A stretch of 64,000 bases of DNA from assembly GCA_900100245.1 (NCBI GenBank), contig FNEU01000010.1, positions 62,001-126,000 of the forward strand, written 5' to 3'. The stretch comes from Lachnospiraceae bacterium G41. Lineage in GTDB: Bacteria > Bacillota > Clostridia > Lachnospirales > Lachnospiraceae. The position numbers and the translations under genes are program-made. This document shows, piece by piece, positions 8,845 through 62,566 of this stretch. The first letter of the stretch is position 1. The number at the start of each line of letters is the position of its first letter. A model generated the notes under the pieces. The model saw nothing but the letters and a program-made list of their open reading frames with translations. It was not told the DNA's origin and searched no databases.

Positions 8845-9999
8845 ATGGAATGTTATCTTGACAATTCGGCCACAACGAAAGCTTTCGATGAAGTCATCGA
8901 AGCCGTAAAGTCCGAAATGAGCGAATATTACGGCAACCCTTCAAGCATGCATATAAAGGGTTTTGAAGCCGAAAAGAAAATAAAAGAAACGACAAAAATA
9001 ATCGCTTCCACCTTAAAGTGTGACGAGAGCGAGATTATATATACATCGGGCGGTACCGAAGCCGACAATATGGCTTTAATCGGTATTTCAAGAGCGTATA
9101 AAAGAAGCGGAAAACATATCATCACTTCTTCGATTGAGCATGCTGCAATTCTTCAGAGTGCAGAGTTTCTAAAAGAAGAAGGCTATGAAATAACATATCT
9201 TTCAACCGATTCAAAAGGCGTTGTAAATCTCGAGGAACTTGAAAATGCCATCAGGGAAGATACGATTCTTGTTTCCGTAATGGGCGTTAACAACGAGATT
9301 GGAACCGTTGAACCGATTGAGAAAATCTCCGAGATTATCAAAAAGAAAAATCCCAATACTCTTTTCCATGTGGATGCTGTACAGGCGTATGGTAAGATTA
9401 AACTCATCCCCAAGAAAATGGGTATTGATTTACTCAGCGTAAGCGGTCATAAAATACACGGTCCCAAGGGAATCGGTTTTCTTTATGTGTCTTACAAAAT
9501 TAAAATCAAACCGATTATATTCGGCGGCGGACAGCAGAAGAATATGCGAAGCGGTACCGAAAACGTATGCGGTATCATGGGACTCGGCGCAGCGGTTAAA
9601 AAGATATTTGATAATTTTGATGAAGATACCGCTCGTATGAGAGAGCTTCGCGAATATATGATTAATGGCCTCAAAGAGTGTGATGGCGTTATGATAAACG
9701 GTGCGGATTTGGAAAACAGTGCGCCCCACATTGTCAGCGCATCCGTAAAGGGTGTAAGAGCAGAAGTTTTGCTTCATTCACTCGAAGAAAAGGGAATTTA
9801 TATTTCTTCGGGAAGCGCCTGTGCGTCCAACAAGCCCGCTGTTTCAGCCACCTTAAAGGCTATCGGTGTTGATAAGGATCTTTTAGATTCGACCGTTAGA
9901 TTCAGCTTTTCGGTAATGACTACAAAAGACGAAATAGATTATGCACTTTTAAATTTCAAAGAAACGATAGAAAAATTAAGGCTTTATGTAAGACGTTAA
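8845..9999 (+). CDS. Cysteine desulfurase, NifS/IscS-like
   Basis: 384 residues of a class V aminotransferase-fold enzyme. It removes sulfur from cysteine and holds it as a persulfide. Visible landmarks are YLDNSATT at the N-terminus, GGTEADN (69-75), H99 that stacks on the cofactor, HVDAVQAYGK (175-184), PLP lysine K203 in VSGHKIHGPKG, RSGTEN (235-240) and the persulfide cysteine C326 in SSGSACAS. Similar genes stand immediately before thiI in many Firmicutes and feed sulfur to ThiI for 4-thiouridine. Here thiI is ~6.7 kb downstream, beyond an inserted envelope cluster. The hybrid kinase gene begins 10 bp after the stop, so the two are probably co-transcribed. Confidence 0.93.
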   Translation: MECYLDNSATTKAFDEVIEAVKSEMSEYYGNPSSMHIKGFEAEKKIKETTKIIASTLKCDESEIIYTSGGTEADNMALIGISRAYKRSGKHIITSSIEHAAILQSAEFLKEEGYEITYLSTDSKGVVNLEELENAIREDTILVSVMGVNNEIGTVEPIEKISEIIKKKNPNTLFHVDAVQAYGKIKLIPKKMGIDLLSVSGHKIHGPKGIGFLYVSYKIKIKPIIFGGGQQKNMRSGTENVCGIMGLGAAVKKIFDNFDEDTARMRELREYMINGLKECDGVMINGADLENSAPHIVSASVKGVRAEVLLHSLEEKGIYISSGSACASNKPAVSATLKAIGVDKDLLDSTVRFSFSVMTTKDEIDYALLNFKETIEKLRLYVRR

Positions 10000-10009
10000 A
10001 GGAGAGAGC

Positions 10010-12133
10010 ATGTTACCTTTTTCCACCACAATGGTGCTTAGTTTAATCGAATTTTTCTGCGTGGTTGTACTTCACGTAATATATGCGTTCGGCCATTTCG
10101 GAATTGAAGAAACGCTTCTTTCCGCAATCGGTTTTATTCCGATTCTTTTAACAGTGCTTCTGTTCAGACTTGTTAAAAAAGAGTCGATTATCATCAGAGT
10201 GTTCTATATTTCCATGCTTATTGCGAGCTATTTTATCTCATGGAAGATTCAGACTCTCGGTATGTTAATCATGGTTTATTTTGCCGGCGCATTAATGATA
10301 GCTTTGCACTCCAACAGAAAACTCATGCTCGAATATTCGATAGTATCCGCGGTTATTTTAATAGCGATGGCTATTTTTCAGATGGATGCAATCGATCAGG
10401 TTTGCCCTTCGCAGATTTATTACATTTACCTGATTCTGTATGCATTCGGTATGGTGACGTTGGTCTTCATGGCGAGCGGTATCAAAAACTACAAGCAGAA
10501 GATGGAAGAAAAACAGGTAGAAGCTCAGAATGCTCTTGAAGCAAAAAGCAACTTTCTTGCAAATATGTCTCATGAAATCAGAACCCCTATGAATGCTATC
10601 TGCGGTATGGCACAGCTTCTCTCTGAGAGAGAACTCGGTGATGAAGAGAGTGAATATGTCGAGACGATCCAAAAGTCAAGTGAGAGCCTTCTTTCAATCA
10701 TCAACGAAATCCTCGACTTCTCTAAGATTGATTCCGGTAAGATGGAAATAAACGAAGAAGAGTATCACTTCAACTCACTTATCCACGATGTATTAAGTAT
10801 CATCGAATTCAGACTGAAAGACAAATCCGTCAAGTTGATAACCGAGATTAATCCCAACATTCCGAGAATAATGATCGGTGATGAACTTCGTATCAGACAG
10901 ATTTTAATCAACCTTTTAAACAACGCAGTTAACTTTACCCATCGAGGCAGCATTACCTTAAAAATCGTCTGGGTTGCTCAGGGAAACGACAAGGGTGTAC
11001 TCGAAGTCGAGGTAAAAGATACGGGTATCGGTATCTCCGAAGAAAACATGGGCAAGCTCTTTAAGGCCTTCGGACAGATTGATACAAGAAAGAACAGAAA
11101 CGTTGAAGGTACAGGTCTTGGTCTTGCGATTTCCAAGAACCTGCTTGAACTCATGGGCGGCGGAATCTGGGCTACCAGTACGCCTGATTACGGTTCAACC
11201 TTCAGCTTTTCACTACCTCAGAAAGTTAAGGACGGCAGACCTTCGAACTATAAAAACGACCACAATATCGTTGTCAGACAAAACGACGAATTTAAGATCT
11301 CCTTTAAGGCGCCTACTGCACGTGTAATGATTGTAGATGATAACAAGGTCAACCTTTTGGTCGCTTTTGAAATCATGAAAAGATTCGGTTTTGAAGCAAC
11401 GACTATCGATAACGGTTCAGAAGCGTTTAACAGAATCGATGAACATCTCGTAACCTACGACATTATTTTCATGGATCATATGATGCCTTTTATGGACGGT
11501 GTTGAAACCACCATGAAGATAAGGGCACTCGATTCGCAGTATGCGAAAGAAATTCCCATCATTGCACTTACCGCAAATGCTATAAAAGGTGTTGAAAAAC
11601 AGTTCAAGGATGCAGGCATGAACGATTATCTTTCAAAGCCTATCCATGTCGATCAGTTAAATGACATCCTTAAAAGATGGCTTCCTCTTGAAAAGCAGAT
11701 TCGTGTGGTAGACGGCGAAGAAATGAAGCCCGTTCCTTCCAGCAATGCAAAGACCAAGGAACAGAGAGAAGAGGATATACTTTTCTCAATCAAAGGCATC
11801 AACCCCGAGACCGGTATCAGAAACTGCGGCGGAAACAGAAATGTTTACATACAGATTCTGCGTACTTTTTCATCATCCAATCTTGCTGCGGGACTTGAGT
11901 CCTACTATGAAGATTCGGACTGGAAGAACTACGAGGTTATCGCTCATTCCGTAAAAGGAGCCTGCCGTAATATCGGTGCGAATGACATCGGCGAAAAGGC
12001 TTACCAGCTTGAACTTGCGGGCAAAAAGGGCGATGAGACTTTCATCAGAGCCAACCACAAAGATTTCTTAAACGAGTACAAAGAACTGATAAGTTCGATT
12101 ACAAAAGCTATCATTCAGATAAATGTTCACTAG
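10010..12133 (+). CDS. Hybrid sensor histidine kinase with receiver and Hpt domains
   Basis: 707 residues. Five to six N-terminal TM segments (about 8-28, 37-55, 62-78, 84-100, 108-124, 136-156) form an unrecognised membrane sensor. They are followed by a short coiled coil and the H-box ANMSHEIRTPMNAI with H188. An ATPase domain has NLLNNAVNFT, DTGIGIS and GTGLGLAISK. A receiver domain (about 437-555) has D489 in FMDHMMP and the conserved TAN and SKP motifs. A C-terminal Hpt domain has H646 in IAHSVKGACRNIG. It is therefore a complete internal phosphorelay. It sits between the cysteine desulfurase and the LtaS-like gene, and a LytTR response regulator lies 3.9 kb downstream. Its output partner is not evident, and control of the envelope genes is an inference. 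Confidence 0.93.
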   Translation: MLPFSTTMVLSLIEFFCVVVLHVIYAFGHFGIEETLLSAIGFIPILLTVLLFRLVKKESIIIRVFYISMLIASYFISWKIQTLGMLIMVYFAGALMIALHSNRKLMLEYSIVSAVILIAMAIFQMDAIDQVCPSQIYYIYLILYAFGMVTLVFMASGIKNYKQKMEEKQVEAQNALEAKSNFLANMSHEIRTPMNAICGMAQLLSERELGDEESEYVETIQKSSESLLSIINEILDFSKIDSGKMEINEEEYHFNSLIHDVLSIIEFRLKDKSVKLITEINPNIPRIMIGDELRIRQILINLLNNAVNFTHRGSITLKIVWVAQGNDKGVLEVEVKDTGIGISEENMGKLFKAFGQIDTRKNRNVEGTGLGLAISKNLLELMGGGIWATSTPDYGSTFSFSLPQKVKDGRPSNYKNDHNIVVRQNDEFKISFKAPTARVMIVDDNKVNLLVAFEIMKRFGFEATTIDNGSEAFNRIDEHLVTYDIIFMDHMMPFMDGVETTMKIRALDSQYAKEIPIIALTANAIKGVEKQFKDAGMNDYLSKPIHVDQLNDILKRWLPLEKQIRVVDGEEMKPVPSSNAKTKEQREEDILFSIKGINPETGIRNCGGNRNVYIQILRTFSSSNLAAGLESYYEDSDWKNYEVIAHSVKGACRNIGANDIGEKAYQLELAGKKGDETFIRANHKDFLNEYKELISSITKAIIQINVH

Positions 12134-12149
12134 TCAGGAGATAACTAAA

Positions 12150-13796
12150 GTGTCTGAAACAAAGAAAAAAAGAGAAAAATTCCATGCTGTTCCCGCAGTG
12201 ATTATATCTTCGGCGTGTGGTTTTTTTCTCTATTTGTATGCCCCTTTCGAGATGTATTTTACAAATAAAACGGACTTTTGGTTTGATTTTTATAATATCA
12301 TAGGCATCAATTTGGGACTGGCGCTTTTAACGGCAGCAGTCATTTTCGGACTTTTATTTCTCGCTCATATTATTCACCCTATAGTTTACAAAGTATTGTT
12401 TTCAGCAGGCGTTGTGTGCTTCTTCGATTTTTACGTTGAAGGAAGCTTCCTTGCGAAGAATCTTCCGAGACTCGACGGCAGAGAGATTGACTGGAGCGTA
12501 TACACTACACATCGAATTTTGTCGATTGTATTGGTTCTTTTACTCATCGGTATAGTAACTGCGCTTGTAATAATCTTTAAGTTTGAAAAAGCTGAGAAGT
12601 TCATGCAATACGGATTGCTTGTGATTAGCGGTATTTTGCTTATAACAGTGATTTCACTCGGCGTGATGAATAACGGCTTTGAGAAGAAGAGCAGACTTGT
12701 AATTAACAAAGACTGCGAGTTCGAATTCTCGAATGAACAAAACATAATCATTCTGGTCCTTGATGCTGTGGATGGCGATACGTTTGATGAAGTTTTAAGC
12801 GAACATCCTGAGTATTATGATGATTACAAGGATTTCACGTACTACAGCAATATGGTCTCAACATATACCCAGACCGATACCTCCATTCCGTATCTTTTAA
12901 CAGGTGTTTTCTGGGAAGGCGAAAAGGCTGAACCGTTCGAAGATTATCTTAACAGAGAGATTGAAAATTCGGCATTTTTGGAAAAACTTCAAAACGAAAA
13001 TTATAGAATCGGTTTTTATGAACCCTTCGTTTATCCCGCAAAAGGAGACCGCATTACCACGTTCGATAATGTATACAGAACAGGCATGATGAGTATAGAA
13101 TTCGTGTCGTATTTCAAGAATATGACCAAACTCGTCGGATTCAAAAATGCACCGTTCGAACTTAAAAAATACTGCGAAATTTATTACAAGAATTTCCTTG
13201 CTGACGAGCGCGATATTGTAAGGGATAATATATTCCGCGACGATAACGACGACTTCCTAAAAGATATAAACAGCGCTACATTTACCACTTCCGGAGATAA
13301 GTTTTTTAAGATTTATCACGTAGAGGGTGCGCATGTGCCTTTTGTGTTTGACGAGAAGCTTAACAGGGTTTCGGATTCGAATTATAAAAAGAGCGTTGAA
13401 GGTTCAATGTATTTGGCCAAGGAATTTATCGACAGACTGAAAGAAAACGGCGTGTACGATAATTCCGTGGTTATCATACTGGCCGATCACGGCTTTTCCG
13501 AGGAAGATATACCTGAAGACAGACTTCATCCGATATTCTTCGTAAAAGGCATCGGCGAGACCAAAGAAAGTATGGAAATAAACGACGCGCCCGCCTCTTT
13601 TGAAGATTTCATCGAAGCAGTTGAAAGACTTAAAACAGGTACGAATAGCGATGGTATATTTGACTGGCACGAAGGCGATATTCGCGACAGAAAATGTTAT
13701 GTGAATTTCTACAAAGAAGAAGGAAACGCATACTATGCGGAGTGTATTCAAAAAGGTCACGCCGGAGACTACACTCAGGTAATTGTCGTTAAGTAA
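12150..13796 (+). CDS. LtaS-like membrane protein of the sulfatase / alkaline phosphatase superfamily
   Basis: 548 residues from a GTG that has CAGGAG nine bases upstream; an in-frame ATG at 12123 overlaps the kinase gene and lacks a ribosome site. Five TM segments (about 15-36, 47-73, 80-100, 122-144, 154-175) precede an external catalytic domain, the topology of lipoteichoic acid synthases. The metal-binding D205 lies in ILVLDAVDGDTFDEV. A Thr/Ser-rich strand, TQTDTSIPYLLTG (240-252), is where the nucleophile is expected. H395 is in GAHVPF, and D446-H447 are in ILADHGFSE. Family members transfer or hydrolyse phosphate or sulfate esters such as glycerophosphate or phosphoethanolamine. The sequence is diverged from true LtaS, so the substrate is unknown. 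The fused glycerophosphotransferase gene starts 14 bp downstream. Confidence 0.85.
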   Translation: MSETKKKREKFHAVPAVIISSACGFFLYLYAPFEMYFTNKTDFWFDFYNIIGINLGLALLTAAVIFGLLFLAHIIHPIVYKVLFSAGVVCFFDFYVEGSFLAKNLPRLDGREIDWSVYTTHRILSIVLVLLLIGIVTALVIIFKFEKAEKFMQYGLLVISGILLITVISLGVMNNGFEKKSRLVINKDCEFEFSNEQNIIILVLDAVDGDTFDEVLSEHPEYYDDYKDFTYYSNMVSTYTQTDTSIPYLLTGVFWEGEKAEPFEDYLNREIENSAFLEKLQNENYRIGFYEPFVYPAKGDRITTFDNVYRTGMMSIEFVSYFKNMTKLVGFKNAPFELKKYCEIYYKNFLADERDIVRDNIFRDDNDDFLKDINSATFTTSGDKFFKIYHVEGAHVPFVFDEKLNRVSDSNYKKSVEGSMYLAKEFIDRLKENGVYDNSVVIILADHGFSEEDIPEDRLHPIFFVKGIGETKESMEINDAPASFEDFIEAVERLKTGTNSDGIFDWHEGDIRDRKCYVNFYKEEGNAYYAECIQKGHAGDYTQVIVVK

Positions 13797-13810
13797 ACGA
13801 CGGAGGAATC

Positions 13811-15712
13811 ATGCAGATTATATTTAAACCTTTTATACTGATAATGGAGGCCTGCTACGGGTTTTGCAAAAACTATGGTCTTGCAATAATTGTATTTACC
13901 CTGCTTAGCAAGATAATTCTTCTCCCTCTTTCGATTTGGCTTCAGGTAAACTCGATTAAGATGGTCAAAATGGAGCCCGAGCTTAACTTCATGGAGGCCA
14001 AGTTTTTCGGTGACAAGGAACGAATAGCCGAAGAAGAAACCAAGATTTATAAAAAATACAAATACAATCCTTTTATTTCCATCATTCCGACTATTATTCA
14101 GTTGATTCTCTTAATGGCTGTAATTGAGGCAATAAAGGCCGGAATGCAAAATCCCGGCGTGAACATGATGTTTATGGGATTTTCCCTCGCAACGGTTCCA
14201 TCAAAAGTCGGCGGATGGTATCTTTTATCCCCGATTATTGCCGCAGTATCGGCTCTTTTAATGTGCATTTGTCAGAATAAAAGCAATGTCATTCAGGCAG
14301 AGCAGTCAAAGGCTTCCCAGATAATCATGCTCGTAATTTCTGTTGGATTATCCCTGTATCTCGGCTTTTTCGTGTCCGTCGGCGTAGCACTTTACTGGGT
14401 ATTCAGCAATCTTTTTGCGATAGCGCAGCTTTACATTTTAAACTTTTTCATCAATCCTAAAAAGCATGTTGATTATGCCAAACTTGAGGAGAGCAAAAAG
14501 GCGCTCGAAGAGCTTGAAAACCTTGGCTTAAAAGATCATAAAAGAGGCGAGGCGAAGGCCTATGCCAAAAAAGAAAAGGAAGATTATAAAAGATTTTTCT
14601 CTGTTGTAAACAAGCACCTTGTCTTTTATTCCGAAAGCAACGGGTTTTATAAGTATTATGCGGGAATGATTGATTATCTTTTGGAAAAAACAAATATAAC
14701 CATACATTACATCACATCGGACCCTAACGACAATATATTCAATATGGCCGAAAAAGAGCCCAGAATCCGCGGATATTATATCGGCGAGAAGAGATTAATC
14801 ACGCTAATGATGAGAATGGAAGCGGATATTGTGGTCATGACAGTGCCCGATCTTGAGAACTTCCACATCAAGAGAAGTTATGTCAGAAAAGACATTGAAT
14901 ATCTGTATGTACAGCACGGAATGGGCAGTGTGAGCTTAACCTACAGGAAGGGCGCACTCGATCATTACGACACGATTCTTTCTCCCAACAGAAAGCAGAC
15001 TGAAGAAATCAGGGCGCAGGAGGCGCTTTACAATTTACCTCAAAAGAAGATCATCGAATGCGGTTATTTTATCCTCGATGATATGATAAAAGCCTACGAT
15101 GCGATGGATAAGACGCCCACAGAGGGACCAAAGACTGTACTCATTGCGCCGTCATGGCAGGAAGACAATATCGTTGACAGCTGTCTTGACGAACTGGTAG
15201 AAGTACTCAGTTCAATGGATTTAAAGATAATCGTTCGTCCTCATCCGCAGCATGTAAGACACAAGAGAGAGAAGCTTGAAAAGCTCAAAGATAAATATTC
15301 GGACAACGATCGAATAGAGGTACAGCTTGATTTCTCGGCTACCGATACGGTATGGAAGGCAGACCTTCTTATAACCGACTGGTCCGATATTTCAATGGAG
15401 TATTCGTTCTGTACGCACAAACCCGTACTCTTCATCAATACGCCAATGAAAATCATGAATCCCGAGTACGATCGTATAGATGTGGTGCCGATCAATATCG
15501 AAATCAGAGATATAGTCGGATGCAATATATCGCCCAAAGAACTTGACAAGGTACCGGAAAAGATAGAATATTTATTTGCGAACAGCGAAATGTTTGCCGA
15601 GAAGATTCGCGAATACGAAGAGGCGCAGGTCTACAATATCGGACACAGTGCAGAAATCGGCGGCAAATACGTAGTTGATCAATTGATGAACAAAGTGAGG
15701 AACAAAAAATGA
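13811..15712 (+). CDS. Fusion of Oxa1/YidC-like insertase domain and CDP-glycerol glycerophosphotransferase-like domain
   Basis: 633 residues. Residues 1-215 show the YidC core: NYGLAIIVFTLLSKIILLPLS with K34 where YidC has its groove arginine, a cytoplasmic helical hairpin (45-85) with VKMEPEL, then TM segments near 88-108, 136-154, 170-188 and 190-213, the last containing VGVALYWVFSN. A charged linker (218-262) leads to a TagF/TarB-type glycosyltransferase fold: LVFYSESNGFYKYY (270-283), YVQHGMG with H369, RPHPQHV (476-482) and ITDWSDISMEY (521-531). The cytoplasmic domain would transfer glycerophosphate or a related polyol phosphate from a CDP donor to a membrane acceptor. The TM part may anchor it or guide lipid or protein substrates. 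The stop codon overlaps the next start. Confidence 0.9.
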   Translation: MQIIFKPFILIMEACYGFCKNYGLAIIVFTLLSKIILLPLSIWLQVNSIKMVKMEPELNFMEAKFFGDKERIAEEETKIYKKYKYNPFISIIPTIIQLILLMAVIEAIKAGMQNPGVNMMFMGFSLATVPSKVGGWYLLSPIIAAVSALLMCICQNKSNVIQAEQSKASQIIMLVISVGLSLYLGFFVSVGVALYWVFSNLFAIAQLYILNFFINPKKHVDYAKLEESKKALEELENLGLKDHKRGEAKAYAKKEKEDYKRFFSVVNKHLVFYSESNGFYKYYAGMIDYLLEKTNITIHYITSDPNDNIFNMAEKEPRIRGYYIGEKRLITLMMRMEADIVVMTVPDLENFHIKRSYVRKDIEYLYVQHGMGSVSLTYRKGALDHYDTILSPNRKQTEEIRAQEALYNLPQKKIIECGYFILDDMIKAYDAMDKTPTEGPKTVLIAPSWQEDNIVDSCLDELVEVLSSMDLKIIVRPHPQHVRHKREKLEKLKDKYSDNDRIEVQLDFSATDTVWKADLLITDWSDISMEYSFCTHKPVLFINTPMKIMNPEYDRIDVVPINIEIRDIVGCNISPKELDKVPEKIEYLFANSEMFAEKIREYEEAQVYNIGHSAEIGGKYVVDQLMNKVRNKK

Positions 15713-15912
15713 ATCATATAATGCTTTACATCGATCCGTCCGTAACAACCTACCTTATTCAGGCTGTTGCAGCAGTTGTTATAGCCGTTGGTGCGGGCCT
15801 GGCAATATATTTTAGAAAAGCCAAGAAAAAAATGAACGAGAAATTCGGAATCGATGAGAACAAAAACAAGGAAGTCGAGTCCGACGATATCGTTTTCAAA
15901 GATGAGCAATAA
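15709..15912 (+). CDS. Small single-TM protein with YIDPS motif
   Basis: 67 residues, start overlapping the upstream stop (ATGA), so translation is probably coupled. A short N-terminus carries LYIDPSVTTYLIQ, then one TM helix (about 14-35), a basic patch RKAKKKM and an acidic tail. I recall similar short proteins with a YIDPG/YIDPS-x-Q motif near sulfatase-fold envelope genes, but cannot name a family. It is probably a partner of the LtaS-like protein and/or the YidC-TagF fusion. A terminator follows within 20 bp, marking the end of the operon. Confidence 0.75.
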   Translation: MNHIMLYIDPSVTTYLIQAVAAVVIAVGAGLAIYFRKAKKKMNEKFGIDENKNKEVESDDIVFKDEQ

Positions 15913-15929
15913 TAATGCTTCTAAAGGGC

Positions 15930-15957
15930 AACCGTCTTGTCAAAAGGCGGTTTTTTT
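15930..15957 (+). terminator. Terminator of the envelope operon
   Basis: AACCGTCTT / AAGGCGGTT with a loop around GTCAA and seven T residues. The loop and T run also hold the promoter of the next gene. Confidence 0.85.
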
Positions 15958-15965
15958 AGTATAAT
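15937..15965 (+). promoter_or_regulatory. Promoter of the LytTR regulator / thiI unit, nested in a terminator
   Basis: TTGTCA at 15937-15942 within the terminator stem-loop, a 17-bp spacer, then TATAAT at 15960-15965. The start codon with AGGGGGGAA follows at ~40 bp. Confidence 0.8.
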
Positions 15966-16005
15966 TTAAAGGATGCAATAAGCATCGCCAAGGGGGGAAT
16001 TGAAA

Positions 16006-16716
16006 ATGTTCAAGGTTGCGATTTGCGATGACGAAATGACGTCATTGATGATTAACCAGGCACTTACTGAGCAGGTATTAGAAGAAGCAAATATCGAATA
16101 TGAAATTACCACATTCGAAGACATGCAGTCCATGATTAAGGGAGTCTTGGATGATAATGCTGATTTTGATCTTCTTTTATCAGACATACTTGCGGTAGGA
16201 ATGAACGGAATCGAAGCGGCTGAGGAAATCAGAAGACTCGGTGATAAATTGCCGATAGTATTCATTTCTTCAACGGCTGAATTTGCACTGGACGGATATC
16301 GTGTAAATGCGCTCAGATATTTACAGAAGCCGGTTCAGATAGACAAGTTAAAAGAAGCGATTCTCGAAGCATATGCAGCCAAGGGCTCCAAGAAAAAAGA
16401 GTATCTTTCTTTCCAGGTTGCAGACAGATTTTACAAGGTCAACCTTGATGACATTGTTTATCTTGAGAGTATGGGAAGAGATACATACGTGGTTACCAAG
16501 ACGGAGACAATCTGCGTTCATGCGAAGTTCTCTGATATGGAACAGCAGGTTCCCGCAGACAGATTTGTCAGATGCCACAGATCATACATTATCAATCTGT
16601 CCGAAGTAAAGGACATAGCAAGATACAGATTTTTAACTAAGAACGGTATAGAGATTCCTATCAGTCAGCTTCAGTATACCGACGTTAAAAAAGATTTTAT
16701 AGAATTCGAGCAGTAA
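16006..16716 (+). CDS. LytTR-family response regulator
   Basis: 236 residues from the ATG eight bases after AGGGGGG; a TTG two codons earlier sits too close to that site. The receiver domain has D8-D9-E10, phospho-acceptor D60 in LLLSDILAVG and the conserved K in RYLQKPVQ. The C-terminal LytTR DNA-binding domain (about 130-232) contains DDIVYLESMGRDTYVVT, FVRCHRSYIINLSEV and IPISQLQY. LytTR regulators bind pairs of short direct repeats and often control envelope, biofilm or toxin genes. There is no LytS-type kinase next to it; the hybrid kinase at 10010 is the closest candidate input. It has its own promoter and is followed 7 bp later by thiI. Confidence 0.93.
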   Translation: MFKVAICDDEMTSLMINQALTEQVLEEANIEYEITTFEDMQSMIKGVLDDNADFDLLLSDILAVGMNGIEAAEEIRRLGDKLPIVFISSTAEFALDGYRVNALRYLQKPVQIDKLKEAILEAYAAKGSKKKEYLSFQVADRFYKVNLDDIVYLESMGRDTYVVTKTETICVHAKFSDMEQQVPADRFVRCHRSYIINLSEVKDIARYRFLTKNGIEIPISQLQYTDVKKDFIEFEQ

Positions 16717-16723
16717 AACAGTT

Positions 16724-17902
16724 ATGACAGACACATATTTAATCAAGTACGGAGAGATCTTTTTAAAGGGCAAAAACAGATTTATTTTTGAAGATGCTCT
16801 CGTAAACAGAATTACCGAAGCCGTAGAAAAGGTAGAGGGAAGATTTAAGGTTTATAAATATCTTTCCAGAGTCTATGTAGAATGTAAAAGCGATTTTGAC
16901 GAAGAAGAATTAATCGCTGCACTTAAAAAAGTATTCGGTATTACCGCAATATGTCCGGTTCGCGTACTTGAAGACAAGGGATTCGATGATCTCAAAGAAC
17001 AACTCGTAAAATATGTGGCTGAAGTTCATCCCGAAGCGGATTTTACTTTTAAGATGCTCTGCAAGAGAGCGAGAAAAAACTATCCGCTCAATTCACAGGA
17101 AATGAACTGTGCACTCGGAGAAGTGCTTCTTGACAGTTATCCCAATTTAAAAGTTAATGTTCATAATCCCGATGTTCTTATAACCGTAGAGGTCAGAGAA
17201 AGGATTTACGTATATTCAAAATCCATTCCGGGCCCGGGCGGAATGCCTGTGGGAACTGCGGGAAAAGCAATGGTTCTTTTATCAGGAGGACTTGATTCGC
17301 CTGTTGCCGCATATATGATCTCAAAGCGCGGCGTTAAGATAGAGGCGGTTTATTTCCACGCGCCTCCTTACACATCCGAGAGGGCTAAGGAAAAGGTCGT
17401 AGACCTGGCTAAAATTGTATCCGCATATACAGGACCGATTAAGCTTCATGTAATCAACTTCACGGATATTCAGATGGCTATTTACCAGAAATGTCCGCCC
17501 GATGAACTGACGATAATTATGCGAAGATACATGATGAGAATCGCAGAGCACATCGCTTTGGAAAACGGCTGTATGGGCCTTGTAACGGGCGAAAGCATCG
17601 GTCAGGTTGCAAGCCAGACAATGCAGTCATTAATGTGTACCAACGAAGTATGTACGCTTCCCGTGTACAGACCGCTTATAGCATTTGACAAGCAGGACAT
17701 CGTGGATATTTCCGAGAAGATAAATACCTACGAAACCAGCGTCCTTCCATACGAAGACTGCTGTACGATATTCGTAGCGGAACATCCTGTCACAAAACCG
17801 ATACCTTCGGTAATTGAAAAACACGAACACAATCTCGACGATTGCATAGATGAAATGTATAAGAAAGCAATTGAAGAGAGAGAAATAATAGAGATTAAAT
17901 AA
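16724..17902 (+). CDS. thiI: tRNA 4-thiouridine synthase ThiI
   Basis: 392 residues without the C-terminal rhodanese domain seen in enterobacterial ThiI, as is normal in Firmicutes. The N-terminal ferredoxin-like region and THUMP domain (to ~165) include LIKYGEIFLKGKNR. The adenylating PP-loop is VLLSGGLDSPVAA with SGGLDS at 187-192. The C-terminus has ESIGQVASQT and a conserved CC motif in YEDCCTIF. It adenylates U8 of tRNA and receives sulfur from a cysteine desulfurase persulfide; it can also supply sulfur for thiamine. The likely donor is the desulfurase at 8845. It shares a transcript with the LytTR regulator 7 bp upstream. Confidence 0.96.
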   Translation: MTDTYLIKYGEIFLKGKNRFIFEDALVNRITEAVEKVEGRFKVYKYLSRVYVECKSDFDEEELIAALKKVFGITAICPVRVLEDKGFDDLKEQLVKYVAEVHPEADFTFKMLCKRARKNYPLNSQEMNCALGEVLLDSYPNLKVNVHNPDVLITVEVRERIYVYSKSIPGPGGMPVGTAGKAMVLLSGGLDSPVAAYMISKRGVKIEAVYFHAPPYTSERAKEKVVDLAKIVSAYTGPIKLHVINFTDIQMAIYQKCPPDELTIIMRRYMMRIAEHIALENGCMGLVTGESIGQVASQTMQSLMCTNEVCTLPVYRPLIAFDKQDIVDISEKINTYETSVLPYEDCCTIFVAEHPVTKPIPSVIEKHEHNLDDCIDEMYKKAIEEREIIEIK

Positions 17903-19761: not shown

Positions 19762-20070
19762 ATGAAATATTCCAACGACCAAGCCTTTGATGAAATAATG
19801 AATCGAGGCAAAATGATCAAAAAGAAACATGATAAAAGAAATACAGTTATTCTGTCTTCTGCGACCGCATTATCAGCATTCCTGCTTATAATTTCGGTCA
19901 GCCTTTTTGCGGGAGGCGGCGAAGCGGGAACTTATTCAACATACGGCTCTTTTGTGCTTAACAACGACTCCATTCAATACGTTGTTGAAGCATTGGCCAC
20001 ATTTTTATTCGGATCGGTTGTAACGGTTGCTATATACAAGATCCGTAATTCAAGATATACCAAGAGATAA
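19762..20070 (+). CDS. Small two-TM membrane protein, paralogue 1
   Basis: 102 residues, AGGAGAAAATCT before the ATG. A charged N-terminal segment, KYSNDQAFDEIMNRGKMIKKKHDKR, precedes TM1 (about 28-50). An external loop GTYSTYGSFVLNND and TM2 (about 71-93) follow, with a basic end. It is clearly related to the 103-residue protein at 22464, sharing MKYxxDxAxxEIxxRGxxI and the xSxYGSFxL loop. The pair brackets the sigma factor / PrsW cluster. No known family is recognised. The N-terminal half is cytoplasmic by the positive-inside rule and could bind a cytoplasmic partner such as the adjacent sigma factor; this is speculation. Confidence 0.78.
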   Translation: MKYSNDQAFDEIMNRGKMIKKKHDKRNTVILSSATALSAFLLIISVSLFAGGGEAGTYSTYGSFVLNNDSIQYVVEALATFLFGSVVTVAIYKIRNSRYTKR

Positions 20071-20074
20071 TAAC

Positions 20075-20141
20075 GGAGCCAGGCACGCGCGCGAGCCAGG
20101 CACCGATGTTGGAGCCAGGCTCCCGAAGGGTGCCTGGCTCC
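20075..20141. repeat. Compound GGAGCCAGGCAC/GTGCCTGGCTCC palindromic repeat
   Basis: Two direct GAGCCAGGCAC copies are followed by GGAGCCAGGCTCCCGAAGGGTGCCTGGCTCC. The last ~30 bases form a hairpin, and the distal arms can also pair with the first copies. It lies in the gap between the small membrane protein and the ECF sigma gene and is not followed by a T run. It may be an RNA structure in the leader or an attenuator rather than a simple terminator. Confidence 0.8.
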
Positions 20142-20156
20142 AAAGTGGAGATAACA

Positions 20157-20741
20157 ATGCCCGAAACAGACGGACAACTTTATATCAGATACGTCAAGGA
20201 AAACGATACCGAAGCCTTTCGAACAGTGTATGAGAAATACCGTGATTCCTTAATACTTTTCCTAAACGGAATTGTCGGAAATATTGACGATGCGGAAGAA
20301 CTGATGATGGATACGTTCGCCATCCTTTCGTCAAGAACGGTAAAATACAGGGAAAAAGAAGACGCGGGATTTAAGACATGGCTTTATGCGATAGCCAAAA
20401 ACCGTGCGAAGATGTTTCTTAGAAAACACAAAACGATGTTTCAGCTTCCCGAAGATGACGAAATGAATTCTGAAGAACTCTCGGACGGAAATACCGATGC
20501 ATCTCCCGAAGAATCGCTCATAAAAGAAGAGCGAAACCAAAAGCTTTATTCGGCATTAGAGAGCCTTGATTCGGATACAAGACAGGTAATATATCTGATG
20601 TATTTTGAAGGTTTAAAACCGCCTGAAATAAGCCGTATCATGAAAAAGAACGTCAAGCAGATTTACAATCTGACGGCAAGAGGAAAGACGGCTCTTAAGG
20701 ATACTTTGGAAAGGATGGGATATAAATGGGATATGTCATAG
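20157..20741 (+). CDS. ECF-type RNA polymerase sigma factor
   Basis: 194 residues from the ATG following TGGAG; upstream in-frame codons lie within the palindromic repeat and would encode an artefactual LEPGSRRVPGS leader. Region 2 (about 10-90) contains AFRTVYEKYRDSLILFL, DAEELMMDTFAIL and FKTWLYAIAKNRAKMFLRK. A Ser/Glu-rich linker follows. Region 4 (about 128-185) contains ALESLDSDTRQVIYLMYFEGLKPPEI and the helix-turn-helix KKNVKQIYNLTARGKTALK. ECF factors are normally held by a membrane anti-sigma factor. The downstream translationally coupled microprotein and membrane proteins, including a PrsW-like protease, are the obvious partners. Confidence 0.92.
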   Translation: MPETDGQLYIRYVKENDTEAFRTVYEKYRDSLILFLNGIVGNIDDAEELMMDTFAILSSRTVKYREKEDAGFKTWLYAIAKNRAKMFLRKHKTMFQLPEDDEMNSEELSDGNTDASPEESLIKEERNQKLYSALESLDSDTRQVIYLMYFEGLKPPEISRIMKKNVKQIYNLTARGKTALKDTLERMGYKWDMS

Positions 20742-20890
20742 TTGGGATAGCCGCATTTGCACTTGGAATATCCCTCACACTTCTTTGTCTGCATTTAAGA
20801 GAAACAAGACAAAGCGATTCGATAAAAGATAAAACATCCGAACAATCGGATAAAAACAAAGAGACTGATTCACAATCGGAGCACAAATGA
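20726..20890 (+). CDS. 54-residue single-TM microprotein coupled to the sigma factor
   Basis: This reading frame starts inside the sigma gene at an ATG preceded by AAAGGATGGGA and ends in an ATGA overlap with the next gene. Read by hand it encodes MGYVIVGIAAFALGISLTLL, then CLHLRETRQ and a hydrophilic Ser/Lys/Asp/Gln tail. It thus has an N-terminal TM helix (3-24) and a ~30-residue charged tail. Overlaps on both sides indicate real, coupled translation. Its position directly behind an ECF sigma gene is where an anti-sigma factor is usually found, but it has no zinc-binding anti-sigma motif and is very short. Regulation of the sigma factor is an inference. Confidence 0.72.
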   Translation: MGYVIVGIAAFALGISLTLLCLHLRETRQSDSIKDKTSEQSDKNKETDSQSEHK

Positions 20891-21693
20891 GTTTTGAAAC
20901 CGTATTTGGAAATATAATTTCAATATTGTCTTTAATTGTTACCGTTTCAATAATCATTTTGTCGGTAAGAAAACTGACGGAAAAGAAGAACAAAGTTCTT
21001 TCCGTCTTTTTTACGTTTGCGATGGTCAGTTATTTTATGAGTGAAGTTTATTATTTCGCTTATAATTTCCTGATCCCCGATACGAGGATGCCTTTTGCGG
21101 CCAACGAAATCGCGGAAGCATCCATGATTCTTTTGCTTTGTGCCGTTCTTGAAACAGTACTTGGCAAAGAAAGAAAAATAAACATCCCGGCACTCATCTT
21201 TTCAACAGTTTTCATAGGAGTCAATATAGCGCTTTGGGTTATGTGGGCGGATGAATGGATCAAGAATATTCTCTTCGGCCTGCCTTATATTTATTACCTT
21301 TATCTTTTACTTAAGGGCGTGATTAAAACCAAAGCAGCATCGAGCAAAGAGATTATATTTGCAGCCGCTTGCAGCTCCCTGGTTTTTGTATTGGAAGCCA
21401 TTGCGTTTGCAACATATGATACCGTCGGACCGATAGTAGAGATAAGCTGTTATCCTTTTATGTATATTCTCTGGATCCTGATTGTTGTTAAGACCATTTA
21501 CACATTACGCAAAGAAGATAAAAACAATGGCGAGGCAATGTACCTTTCTTTTACACTGCATATCTGGACCATGCTTCTGATGTTTATGAGCGCGGATATC
21601 TTTTATAATGTGGCGAACATCATGTATATATTAGTAATGCCTCTTATGTATCTTGCATTTAAAAAGGAGTTATCAAAAGATGATATACGCTGA
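20887..21693 (+). CDS. Multi-TM membrane protein of the sigma/PrsW cluster
   Basis: 268 residues with about eight hydrophobic segments spread over the whole length and no large soluble domain. The first segments are near 10-28 and 38-60, with a charged RKLTEKKNK loop between them. Several aromatic- and acidic-containing helices follow (SEVYYFAYNF, SCYPFMYILWILIV). The start overlaps the microprotein stop, and the 3' end overlaps the PrsW-like gene by 14 bp, so the cluster is translated as a unit. I do not recognise the family. It may be the membrane sensor or signal-transducing part of the sigma system. Confidence 0.8.
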   Translation: MSFETVFGNIISILSLIVTVSIIILSVRKLTEKKNKVLSVFFTFAMVSYFMSEVYYFAYNFLIPDTRMPFAANEIAEASMILLLCAVLETVLGKERKINIPALIFSTVFIGVNIALWVMWADEWIKNILFGLPYIYYLYLLLKGVIKTKAASSKEIIFAAACSSLVFVLEAIAFATYDTVGPIVEISCYPFMYILWILIVVKTIYTLRKEDKNNGEAMYLSFTLHIWTMLLMFMSADIFYNVANIMYILVMPLMYLAFKKELSKDDIR

Positions 21694-22324
21694 GAATATT
21701 TTAATCTGTATAGCGGTGCCTCTTGTGATAGCTTTGATGTTCCTAAGAGGCGGCGGAAGAAAGTTCGTAGTAACATTCCTGCTTGGAATGGTTGTCTGCC
21801 TGCTTTCCGCATATATGAGCGGATTTTGCCAGAATGTATTTGGCTTAAGCGCAGAGGAAACATCCGTCTTCATATCACCTATTACGGAAGAGATAATGAA
21901 GCTCCTTCCGATAATGTTCTATCTCTACATCGTCGAGACCAAAGGTGAAGAGATATTATTCGTGGCAGTCGGAATCGGCGCAGGATTCGCGACTTTTGAG
22001 AACGCATGCCATATTCTCTCGAGCGGCTCGCAAAGCCTTTACTACATCCTTATTAGAGGCGCTGCAGTCGGTGTAATGCACCTTGTAACCATGGTAGTGC
22101 TCGCGATGGGCTTAAACCTCCTAAAAGATTACAAAACCTTCTCACTCGCAGGAATCCTCGGTGCGCTTTCGCTTGCCATGACCGTCCATGCCCTTTATAA
22201 CCTTCTTGTCTCAAGAGCAGGCGCATCCACATATATCGGATACGCATTTCCGTTGATTCTTGTTATTATTTTCTGGGTACTCAGGTATCTTTATCTAAAC
22301 AAAAGAGCAGAAAAGTATTCATAA
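21680..22324 (+). CDS. PrsW-family intramembrane metalloprotease
   Basis: 214 residues from the ATG that follows AAGGAG. About seven TM helices. The characteristic sites are present: E70-E71-x-x-K74 in ITEEIMKLLP, the GAGFATFENACH motif with E107, H134 in GVMHLVTMV and H170 in TVHALYNLL. These are the conserved motifs of PrsW, which in bacilli starts cleavage of the anti-sigma factor RsiW after envelope stress and frees SigW. Its co-occurrence with an ECF sigma factor in one operon supports the same logic here, although no RsiW-like substrate is visible unless the 54-aa microprotein plays that part. A terminator follows. Confidence 0.85.
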   Translation: MIYAENILICIAVPLVIALMFLRGGGRKFVVTFLLGMVVCLLSAYMSGFCQNVFGLSAEETSVFISPITEEIMKLLPIMFYLYIVETKGEEILFVAVGIGAGFATFENACHILSSGSQSLYYILIRGAAVGVMHLVTMVVLAMGLNLLKDYKTFSLAGILGALSLAMTVHALYNLLVSRAGASTYIGYAFPLILVIIFWVLRYLYLNKRAEKYS

Positions 22325-61284: not shown

Positions 61285-62566
61285 TCAGAGCCCTCATTTC
61301 ATCAAGAAAATAATGTTCACAAAGAAGATGAAAAAGGATTATACAATCCTTTCTCCGATGATGTGTCCGATTCATTTCAGACTCCTTCGTCCTGTATTCC
61401 AGAGAGTCGGTTACAAGGTTGACATTATGGAAAACGAAGGCCCGGATGTAATCCAGAAGGGCTTAAAATACGTACACAACGATATCTGTTATCCCTGCTC
61501 GCTCATCACGGGACAGATGCTTGCAACGATGGAAAGCGGCAAATATGATCCCAACAAAGTTGCAATGATAATCACCCAGTCAGGCGGCGGATGTAGAGAC
61601 TCGAACTATATCAATTTAATGCGTAAGGCGTTTGAGAGAGCGGGTTATCCTAATGTTCCTTTTATTTCGGCCAACACCTGGAATATGGAATATGCACCGG
61701 GCATTTTCTTATCACCCTTAACTCTTTTATCAGCGGCAGCAGCACTTGTTTACGGCGATGCATTAACACTTGTTTCAAATCAGGTAAGACCCTACGAAGT
61801 TAAAAAGGGTGCAACCGACGAACTGTTAAATGAGTGGATAGAAATTCTCGGCAGAGGCTTTTCAAGAGGAAAAGGTTATACGGTTTCGGCAATGAAGAAA
61901 ACCGTCAGCGAAATCTGTCGAACCTTCTCCGAAATAAAGGTTAAAAAAGTTGATAAAGTAAAGGTAGCAGTAATAGGTGAACTTTATCTTAAATATTCGG
62001 TTCCCGGCAACAACCATCTCGAAGAGTTCTTAACCGAACAGGACTGCGAATATTTTATACCGACTGTTTTAGGCTTCGGTGCATACAAAACAAACGGTGC
62101 ACTTGAAGATTTGCGAACATACGGCGGCCACCCGATTAAGAGATTAATCATGGAAGCCGTAATGAAATATTATTTCTTTATCGAGGATCTTTTAATCAGC
62201 GGTATCGAAAAATGGCCTATGTTTACAGCTCCCGAGAGAGTCAACGATTTAAAGAAGAGAGCAGAGGGAATCATCGATACCACCAACAGCATGGGCGAAG
62301 GATGGTACCTTGCTGCGGAAATGCTTGAACTCGCAGAGCACGGATACGAAAACATCATCTGCGTTCAGCCTTTCGGCTGTCTTCCCTGCCATGTAGCGGT
62401 TAAGGGTATGCAGAATGTGGTAAGAAGAGTTAACCCTAAGATTAATTCCGTTGATATCGAATACGATCCCGGTGCCACAAAGGTTAATCAGGAAAACAGA
62501 ATCAAGCTTATGCTTGCTGTAGCAAGAGAAAACCTTCAAAAGGAAACCGAAAACAAAGGTGAATAA
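61277..62566 (+). CDS. 2-hydroxyacyl-CoA dehydratase (HgdB)-like iron-sulfur protein
   Basis: 429 residues overlapping the activase gene by 8 bp. Cysteine motifs at NDICYPCSLITGQ (about 72-84) and CVQPFGCLPCHVAVKGM (about 365-380), plus GGGCRDSNY, fit the HgdB/HgdC-like family (COG3581), whose members hold unusual iron-sulfur clusters. There is no CoA-transferase or fatty-acid gene nearby, so a classical amino-acid fermentation role is not supported. Together with the activase it probably forms a stand-alone low-potential reductase of unknown substrate. Confidence 0.87.
   Translation: MSNQSPHFIKKIMFTKKMKKDYTILSPMMCPIHFRLLRPVFQRVGYKVDIMENEGPDVIQKGLKYVHNDICYPCSLITGQMLATMESGKYDPNKVAMIITQSGGGCRDSNYINLMRKAFERAGYPNVPFISANTWNMEYAPGIFLSPLTLLSAAAALVYGDALTLVSNQVRPYEVKKGATDELLNEWIEILGRGFSRGKGYTVSAMKKTVSEICRTFSEIKVKKVDKVKVAVIGELYLKYSVPGNNHLEEFLTEQDCEYFIPTVLGFGAYKTNGALEDLRTYGGHPIKRLIMEAVMKYYFFIEDLLISGIEKWPMFTAPERVNDLKKRAEGIIDTTNSMGEGWYLAAEMLELAEHGYENIICVQPFGCLPCHVAVKGMQNVVRRVNPKINSVDIEYDPGATKVNQENRIKLMLAVARENLQKETENKGE

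Follow-up and report, generated by a model that had tools for sequence, protein, structure and literature searches.

A YidC-TagF fusion as a candidate membrane transferase for cytidylyl-activated headgroups in a Lachnospiraceae bacterium

What might a membrane insertase do when it is joined, in one polypeptide, to an enzyme of the teichoic acid type? The question is raised by a gene of Lachnospiraceae bacterium G41 (assembly GCA_900100245.1, contig FNEU01000010.1), which we studied within a stretch of 64,000 nucleotides (contig positions 62,001 to 126,000, hereafter the window). A previous reading made from the letters of this DNA alone (the sequence-only reading) described the gene as a YidC/Oxa1 core fused to a TagF-like cytidine diphosphate (CDP)-glycerol glycerophosphotransferase and proposed that the two halves are coupled. 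Our analysis points to another donor. We give a probability of about 0.52, slightly better than even, to the reading that the fusion is a membrane transferase for a cytidylyl-activated headgroup, with donors of the type of cytidine monophosphate (CMP)-2-aminoethylphosphonate (AEP) or CDP-ethanolamine. The parts of the gene are as follows.

13811-15712, forward strand: YidC-TagF fusion gene encoding 633 amino acids (aa), an uninterrupted open reading frame (ORF) defined by PF02096, PF04464 and TIGR03592 matches and a structure model
13811-14455, forward strand: YidC/Oxa1 core, residues 1-215
13910-13912, forward strand: codon of K34
14456-14581, forward strand: helical linker, residues 216-257, the least conserved region
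14582-15709, forward strand: TagF-like transferase domain of the glycosyltransferase-B (GT-B) fold, residues 258-633
14915-14917 and 15242-15244, forward strand: codons of the catalytic-type histidines H369 and H478

The single frame proposed by the sequence-only reading was borne out, and a good ribosome-binding site precedes it. Both halves of the proposed architecture were recovered in this one ORF: PF02096 matched residues 22-211 with 98.7 bits (cut-off 35), TIGR03592, the YidC C-terminal domain, scored 96.8 bits (cut-off 84.3), and PF04464 matched residues 267-542 with 45.2 bits (cut-off 22.1). In an AlphaFold2 model of the fusion (mean predicted local distance difference test score, pLDDT, 90.2; predicted template modelling score, pTM, 0.69), each half was confident internally. 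Residues 1-223 matched YidC of Bacillus halodurans (Z 18.6, 199 residues, 3.0 A), and most of the remainder was accounted for by a match to TagF (Z 22.5, 346 residues, 5.2 A). The model contains five long helices compatible with the membrane helices of YidC, in agreement with the five-helix core read earlier; a hydropathy scan gave four windows. A phmmer search against the PDB matched Escherichia coli YidC at 8.5e-12 and aligned K34, as had been claimed, with an arginine that we take to be the groove residue. H369, RPHP (476-479) and DWSDISMEY (523-531) were all found where they had been placed. The catalytic histidines of TagF are H444 and H584, according to the part of PMC5974469 consulted. 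By motif and position, rather than by superposed coordinates, H369 and H478 appear to be their equivalents.

A scan of genome contigs gave 252 relatives, and all counts over 80 loci refer to the best 80 of these 252. In an alignment of 74 fusions (without L047, L049, L061, L066, L071, L081 and L082), column 34 held lysine in 73 sequences and arginine in one, so the lysine entails no loss of the positive charge; H369 and H478 were conserved in all 74. At the >=95% level, 45 positions of the YidC part are conserved, K34 and polar residues inside helices among them, and four of the linker. In the comparison with the nearest relative (L044, 84% identity), nonsynonymous divergence (pN) was 0.10 in the YidC half and 0.11 in the TagF-like half, with synonymous differences saturated; over three pairwise comparisons, pN was 0.10-0.19 in the YidC part and 0.11-0.15 in the enzyme part. 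Both halves look to be under constraint. The housekeeping YidC of the same genome (L008:4001-5542 on contig 8, between RnpA-like and Jag-like genes by eye) has tyrosine in the K34 column, as do the three further stand-alone YidC sequences from the family in that alignment, and a second fused YidC of this genome has asparagine; the window fusion is thus the copy in its genome that retains the groove charge. A separate, shorter YidC frame was present in 27 of the 28 carrier genomes examined (two of these frames partial), and the idea that the fusion serves as the sole YidC of the cell was rejected on this ground.

The chance that a sequencing or assembly error joined two genes is negligible. A survey of 120 genomes of the family found the fusion in four, the window's own included (one aligned as two pieces of one frame), and thus gave three further full-length fusions; on a profile recheck, 79 of the 80 relatives, in other assemblies, carried a single full frame. 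The exception is L047, an 89%-identical relative in which the fusion and an adjacent histidine kinase gene are each broken into two frames (L047:5974-7864), perhaps by sequencing errors in a metagenome assembly.

Two neighbours of the fusion recur with it.

12123-13796, forward strand: LtaS/YejM-like "sulfatase" of the alkaline phosphatase superfamily (PF00884, 38.9 bits), with five hydropathy windows as predicted membrane helices and a probable threonine nucleophile, T251
15709-15912, forward strand: membrane peptide of 67 aa with a YIDPS motif, overlapping the stop codon of the fusion by 4 bases

The best PDB profile match of the sulfatase-like protein was LtaS (2w5q, 34.2 bits). Its residues T251, D214, D455, H456, H399 and H404, which from knowledge of the family we take to be the nucleophile and metal ligands, were invariant in 29 rows. 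The fold of the homologue in L066 was closest to YejM (Z 21.0), followed by sulfatases (<=20.9), LtaP (19.1) and LtaS (18.9); in the model of the triple fusion of L066, the enzyme domain was poor (mean pLDDT 76.7, pTM 0.50) as few rows covered it, and the placement of the three modules was not used. The YIDPS peptide was found in 78 of the 80 loci, all but L053 and L060; in 69 it was encoded on the strand of the fusion at a distance of no more than about 250 bases, which makes it the closest companion of the fusion. In many loci, judged by eye, the peptide begins with an apparent signal peptide that ends just before YIDPS; after such cleavage the motif would face outward and the lysine-rich tail would lie inside. 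A sulfatase-like gene was found in 57 of the 80 loci and was directly upstream of the fusion or fused to it in 34.

The recurrent set is therefore a YidC core, a TagF-like domain, an LtaS/YejM-like sulfatase and a membrane peptide of ~65 aa, and the order in which these parts are fused varies between loci. We refer to the YidC-TagF fusion as type A and to a YidC-sulfatase fusion with a separate peptide-TagF gene as type B. The genome of the window also carries a type B locus (L007:9920-13948, contig 11), in which a protein of 921 aa with a YidC core, five helices and a sulfatase-like domain is followed by one of 416 aa with a YIDPGTGS membrane segment and a TagF-like domain. Three type A relatives (L061, L066 and L071) hold the sulfatase-like, YidC and TagF-like parts in a single frame, the peptide is fused to the sulfatase-like protein in 10 loci, and a YidC-sulfatase fusion occurs in eight, five of which adjoin a peptide-TagF gene. 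The YidC-sulfatase locus L036 adjoins a TagF-like match, and the genome of L041 and L042 carries two peptide-TagF genes. In an unrooted tree of the YidC parts of both types, the sequences formed three separate clusters. That the YidC core is joined to a TagF-like domain, to a sulfatase-like enzyme or to both supports some coupling role, as the sequence-only reading had suggested.

These rearrangements bear on what the YidC core does. It could be a mere membrane anchor or scaffold that replaces the peripheral binding of TagF, leaving all the work to the transferase and the groove vestigial. In line with this, the TagF-like protein of type B is anchored by the YIDPGTGS segment instead; L038 has a TagF-like gene with aepXYZ and a nucleotidyltransferase (NTase) gene and no YidC gene in the 12 kb examined, although the same genome has the YidC-sulfatase fusions L041 and L042; and carriers generally have a separate YidC. 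Yet constraint on the YidC part is about as strong as on the enzyme, its 45 conserved positions include K34 and the polar helix residues, and in type B it is joined to the sulfatase as well, and we consider a simple anchor doubtful. Still less probable is that the core is a working insertase dedicated to the peptide or the sulfatase-like enzyme, with the fusion only timing their assembly. The peptide seems to be a short N-out/C-in protein, like known YidC-only substrates, and the whole core is retained with its groove charge and first cytosolic loop; in type B, however, it is the transferase that contains the peptide, YidC forming a fusion with the sulfatase, and the signal-peptide-like N-terminus encoded by many peptide genes suggests that the usual export route may serve.

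The donor of TagF is CDP-glycerol, and the genes around the fusion in relatives suggest other donors. Core AEP genes lay within about 6 kb of the fusion in 12 of the 80 loci, and genes for an NTase-CobD protein, a LicC/PntC-like nucleotidyltransferase with a CobD-like pyridoxal phosphate domain, in 22 others, with no overlap between the two groups. Presumably, this protein could decarboxylate phosphoserine or phosphothreonine and then activate the amino-alcohol phosphate with cytidine triphosphate. One further locus (L107) encodes a nucleotidyltransferase with an APH protein (NTase-APH), as for choline. Together, these strong classes occurred in 35 of the 80 type A loci and in none of 20 control stretches (p 5e-5); L057 and L090 were scored as NTase-CobD by an NTase part at the locus edge, and without them the count is 33. 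Adding single NTase- or CobD-like domain matches of >=40 bits raised it to 51 of 80, again with none of the 20 controls (p 5e-8). The controls were 14-kb stretches from nine carrier genomes, at positions chosen arbitrarily rather than at random. In L069 the order is sulfatase-aepX-NTase-[YidC-TagF]-peptide-aepZ-aepY, and in L056 it is aepZ-aepX-NTase-aepY-[YidC-TagF]-peptide; similar arrangements occur in L118, L119, L123 and L108. An AEP cluster and the fusion lie between secA and sugar-hydrolase genes in L060, so the association can occur outside a glycan locus.

The same association appears beyond type A loci. Among 10 type B loci, AEP genes were present in L035 and L038, NTase-CobD in L033 and an NTase in L036. 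Ahead of the YidC-sulfatase fusion of L035 (L035:3-2806) are genes for a phosphoenolpyruvate (PEP) mutase (aepX), an iron alcohol dehydrogenase and phosphonopyruvate decarboxylase (aepY), the dehydrogenase between the other two, and the phosphonate of this locus may be hydroxyethylphosphonate rather than AEP, judging from the gene content. In the family sample, AepX was found in five of the nine genomes where a TagF-like match of type A or B occurs and in seven of the 111 others (p 4e-4, with kinship ignored). Across 41 carrier genomes, AepX (nine genomes) and NTase-CobD (16) never co-occurred (p 0.006), and 16 had neither by both searches.

We then placed the donor labels on a FastTree tree of 76 fusions, in which 16 rows were AEP and 23 NTase-CobD; the labels of L045, L046, L071, L076 and the window were taken from the genome rather than the locus. 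The AEP and NTase-CobD labels required nine changes, at least seven of them forced by the starred branches; L107, which is in neither group, adds a third label and brings the total to 10. For example, L056 (AEP) groups with L055 and L058, L065 and L069 (AEP) with L057, and L101 (AEP) with L083. The labels were still partly clustered, with only 10-15 of 500 shuffles giving as few changes. As read from this tree, the pattern is one of repeated exchange of AEP and NTase-CobD cassettes and not of random mixing. AEP and ethanolamine phosphate differ solely in having CH2-P in place of O-P, and since they are near-isosteric, such exchange would be expected for a transferase that accepts either donor.

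The genome of the window has its own AEP genes, on contig 17: AepX scored 417 bits (cut-off 319.6), AepZ 462 (360.8) and AepY 462 (312.5). The closest solved relative of the NTase in this cluster is LicC (98 bits), followed by PntC (41 bits). The EDKxxxxxNS motif was present in all 11 AepX proteins checked, and the genome holds the Pnt gene set of a PEP mutase with this motif, a decarboxylase, a transaminase and a cytidylyltransferase. As for a choline pathway, the LicC-LicA-like protein of L107 had no match in this genome better than 20.8 bits. In L044, aepY lies directly behind the peptide gene, and elsewhere in that genome an NTase-aepZ-aepX run sits beside a weak sulfatase-like match (23.0 bits, below the cut-off of 25). 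Overall, a donor of the CMP-AEP or amino-alcohol phosphate class appears somewhat favored on these gene contents, its odds a shade above those of the transferase reading itself. The donor in the genome of the window would most likely be CMP-AEP, and relatives may use the near-isosteric CDP-ethanolamine, a similar amino-alcohol phosphate, or CDP-choline.

Several observations weigh against a cytidylyl-headgroup transferase of this kind. The fusion lies within or beside a Pnt-type cluster in relatives only, at the 12 loci given above, and the AEP cluster of the window's genome is on a different contig from the window cassette. No donor gene was found in 29 of the 80 type A loci within the DNA examined, and many of these loci spanned the full 14 kb; nor does the window's genome have one in its type B locus, and only four of the 10 type B loci do. 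AEP genes are often near surface-glycan genes, and part of the linkage may reflect a shared pathway rather than direct use, although L060 speaks against this. LicD, a known phosphocholine transferase, could perform the AEP step. The CobD model scored 169.5-188.1 bits in three NTase-CobD examples, below its cut-off of 290.6, and the reaction assigned to the protein is a guess. No sulfatase-like gene was found in 23 of the 80 loci, and the mutual orientation of the YidC and TagF-like domains in the fusion model is unreliable (pTM 0.69). TagD, finally, was over its cut-off in three of 37 other carrier genomes (L044, L048 and L107), and nine more had matches of 79-116 bits, which are below the cut-off of 165.4 and could be related cytidylyltransferases.

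The TagD matches lead to the classical role, that of a teichoic acid polymerase or primase which depends on CDP-glycerol and is anchored by YidC. The PF04464 domain, the TagF fold and both catalytic-type histidines agree with it, and to this extent the glycerophosphotransferase assignment stood. A literal CDP-glycerol role in the window's genome was not supported: no TagD was over the cut-off there, the best match (24.5 bits) being the cytidylyltransferase-like part of AepX, the genome has the AEP and cytidylyl-activation cluster, and the relatives are linked to AEP and NTase-CobD genes. Because TagD is missing from the matches over cut-off in this genome and reaches it in only three of the 37 other carriers, a strict teichoic acid polymerase is lowered to an unlikely alternative, behind the simple anchor and ahead of the dedicated insertase.

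If the fusion is instead a transferase for cytidylyl-activated headgroups, it could work as follows. A small headgroup would be made and cytidylyl-activated in the cytosol; the TagF-like domain, expected on the cytosolic side from the topology of YidC, would detach the phosphonyl or phosphoryl headgroup from its nucleotide and load it onto a membrane-bound acceptor; and the YidC core would hold the transferase at the membrane. A fuller relay is more tentative, its odds well below even though above those of the simple anchor. In this relay, the TagF-like domain would load a lipid inside, the loaded lipid or lipid-linked headgroup would cross the bilayer through the hydrophilic groove of YidC, and the LtaS/YejM-like partner, which retains its active-site residues, would then deliver the group to a surface glycan on the outer side. 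The parts would be linked by the YIDPS peptide, its motif facing outward. LtaS takes its headgroup from phosphatidylglycerol outside the cell, which offers a model for the sulfatase-like step. Lipid scrambling by YidC and Oxa1 has been observed in vitro (PMC10491306, in the part consulted), and the idea of a lipid-access groove fits that activity.

The cassette lies among putative regulators in the window.

10010-12133, forward strand: hybrid histidine kinase (HisKA, HATPase, receiver and Hpt domains; six hydropathy windows), overlapping the sulfatase gene by 11 bases
15930-15952, forward strand: terminator-like hairpin 3' of the membrane-peptide gene, identified by consensus scan only
16000-16716, forward strand: LytTR response regulator adjoining the cassette

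The histidine kinase and sulfatase-like genes, which follow the same order in L047, are probably on one transcript, and the regulator occupies the same position in L047. Across 8845-17902 of the window, the cassette with the hybrid histidine kinase and the LytTR regulator lies between a nifS-like gene and thiI, an order kept in L047. Further along (19762-22324), genes for a small two-helix protein, a sigma-70 family factor, a multi-helix protein and a PrsW-type protease stand in a row that resembles an envelope-stress unit.

The distribution of the cassette is patchy. The relatives kept come from Lachnospiraceae, Oscillospiraceae, Erysipelotrichaceae, other Bacillota records and records titled Candidatus Saccharibacteria. 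In the phylum of the window, the peptide was found in four of 398 genomes, with two clear matches, one of them the window's own genome; in the family of the Saccharibacteria-titled genome G140, it was found in G140 alone and in none of 60 others. The Saccharibacteria-titled carriers (L079, L080, L085, L088, L090, L091, L094, L095, L099, L100, L102, L103, L112 and L116) contribute 14 fusions, which group in a single clade (local support 100) next to Bacillota sequences in a midpoint-rooted tree and so suggest one transfer of the cassette into these small genomes. The 10 such genomes examined were 0.7-0.9 Mb, the expected size for the group. A viral origin was considered and rejected, as a scan of viral contigs gave no relative.

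The component families are known, and the fusion departs from each of them. It shares with the PF04464 polyol-phosphate transferases TagF, TarL and Cps3D the GT-B fold, two catalytic-type histidines and an expected cytosolic CDP-activated donor; it differs in its YidC core, in a genome that has no TagD over cut-off and in the link of its relatives to activation of AEP or amino-alcohol phosphates. With the YidC/Oxa1/Alb3 insertases, it has in common the whole five-helix core, the first cytosolic loop and the positive groove charge. The C-terminus of those proteins is a ribosome-binding tail, whereas the window protein has a C-terminal enzyme, is an extra copy beside the housekeeping YidC and, unlike some relatives, has no proline in the PxG motif that precedes the last helix. 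The partner resembles LtaS and YejM/PbgA in its five predicted membrane helices, conserved threonine and metal-ligand-type residues, and differs in forming a fusion with YidC, both in type B and at three of the type A loci. To our knowledge, no biosynthetic pathway makes use of lipid scrambling by YidC or Oxa1. Pnt phosphonyl tailoring and lic phosphocholine decoration likewise use a cytidylyl-activated zwitterionic headgroup for surface glycans, with AepX, AepY, AepZ and a LicC/PntC-like NTase (PMC6697681, in the part consulted), but here the proposed transferase is of the TagF type and carries a YidC core.

In the open-licence literature, judged by title and abstract start, we found no publication on a YidC-TagF or YidC-sulfatase fusion, and none there, as far as its texts were covered, that names YidC or a TagF-like protein in phosphonate tailoring. 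The terms YidC, sulfatase and glycerophosphotransferase are absent from the main text of PMC6697681, according to which the steps of surface phosphonate tailoring after C-P bond formation remain enigmatic (Rice et al., 2019). The cassette is a concrete candidate for the phosphonate-tailoring transferase, and its interchangeable donor genes make the idea directly testable. Its presence in genomes of 0.7-0.9 Mb recorded as Saccharibacteria suggests that it is transferable and useful alone. The system would be a new form of surface headgroup decoration and offers a natural case for asking whether the YidC fold serves lipid-linked intermediates rather than proteins. If true, an insertase fold would have been reused as a passage for headgroup lipids, and the cassette would provide the steps of transfer and translocation in the tailoring of the surface with phosphonates.

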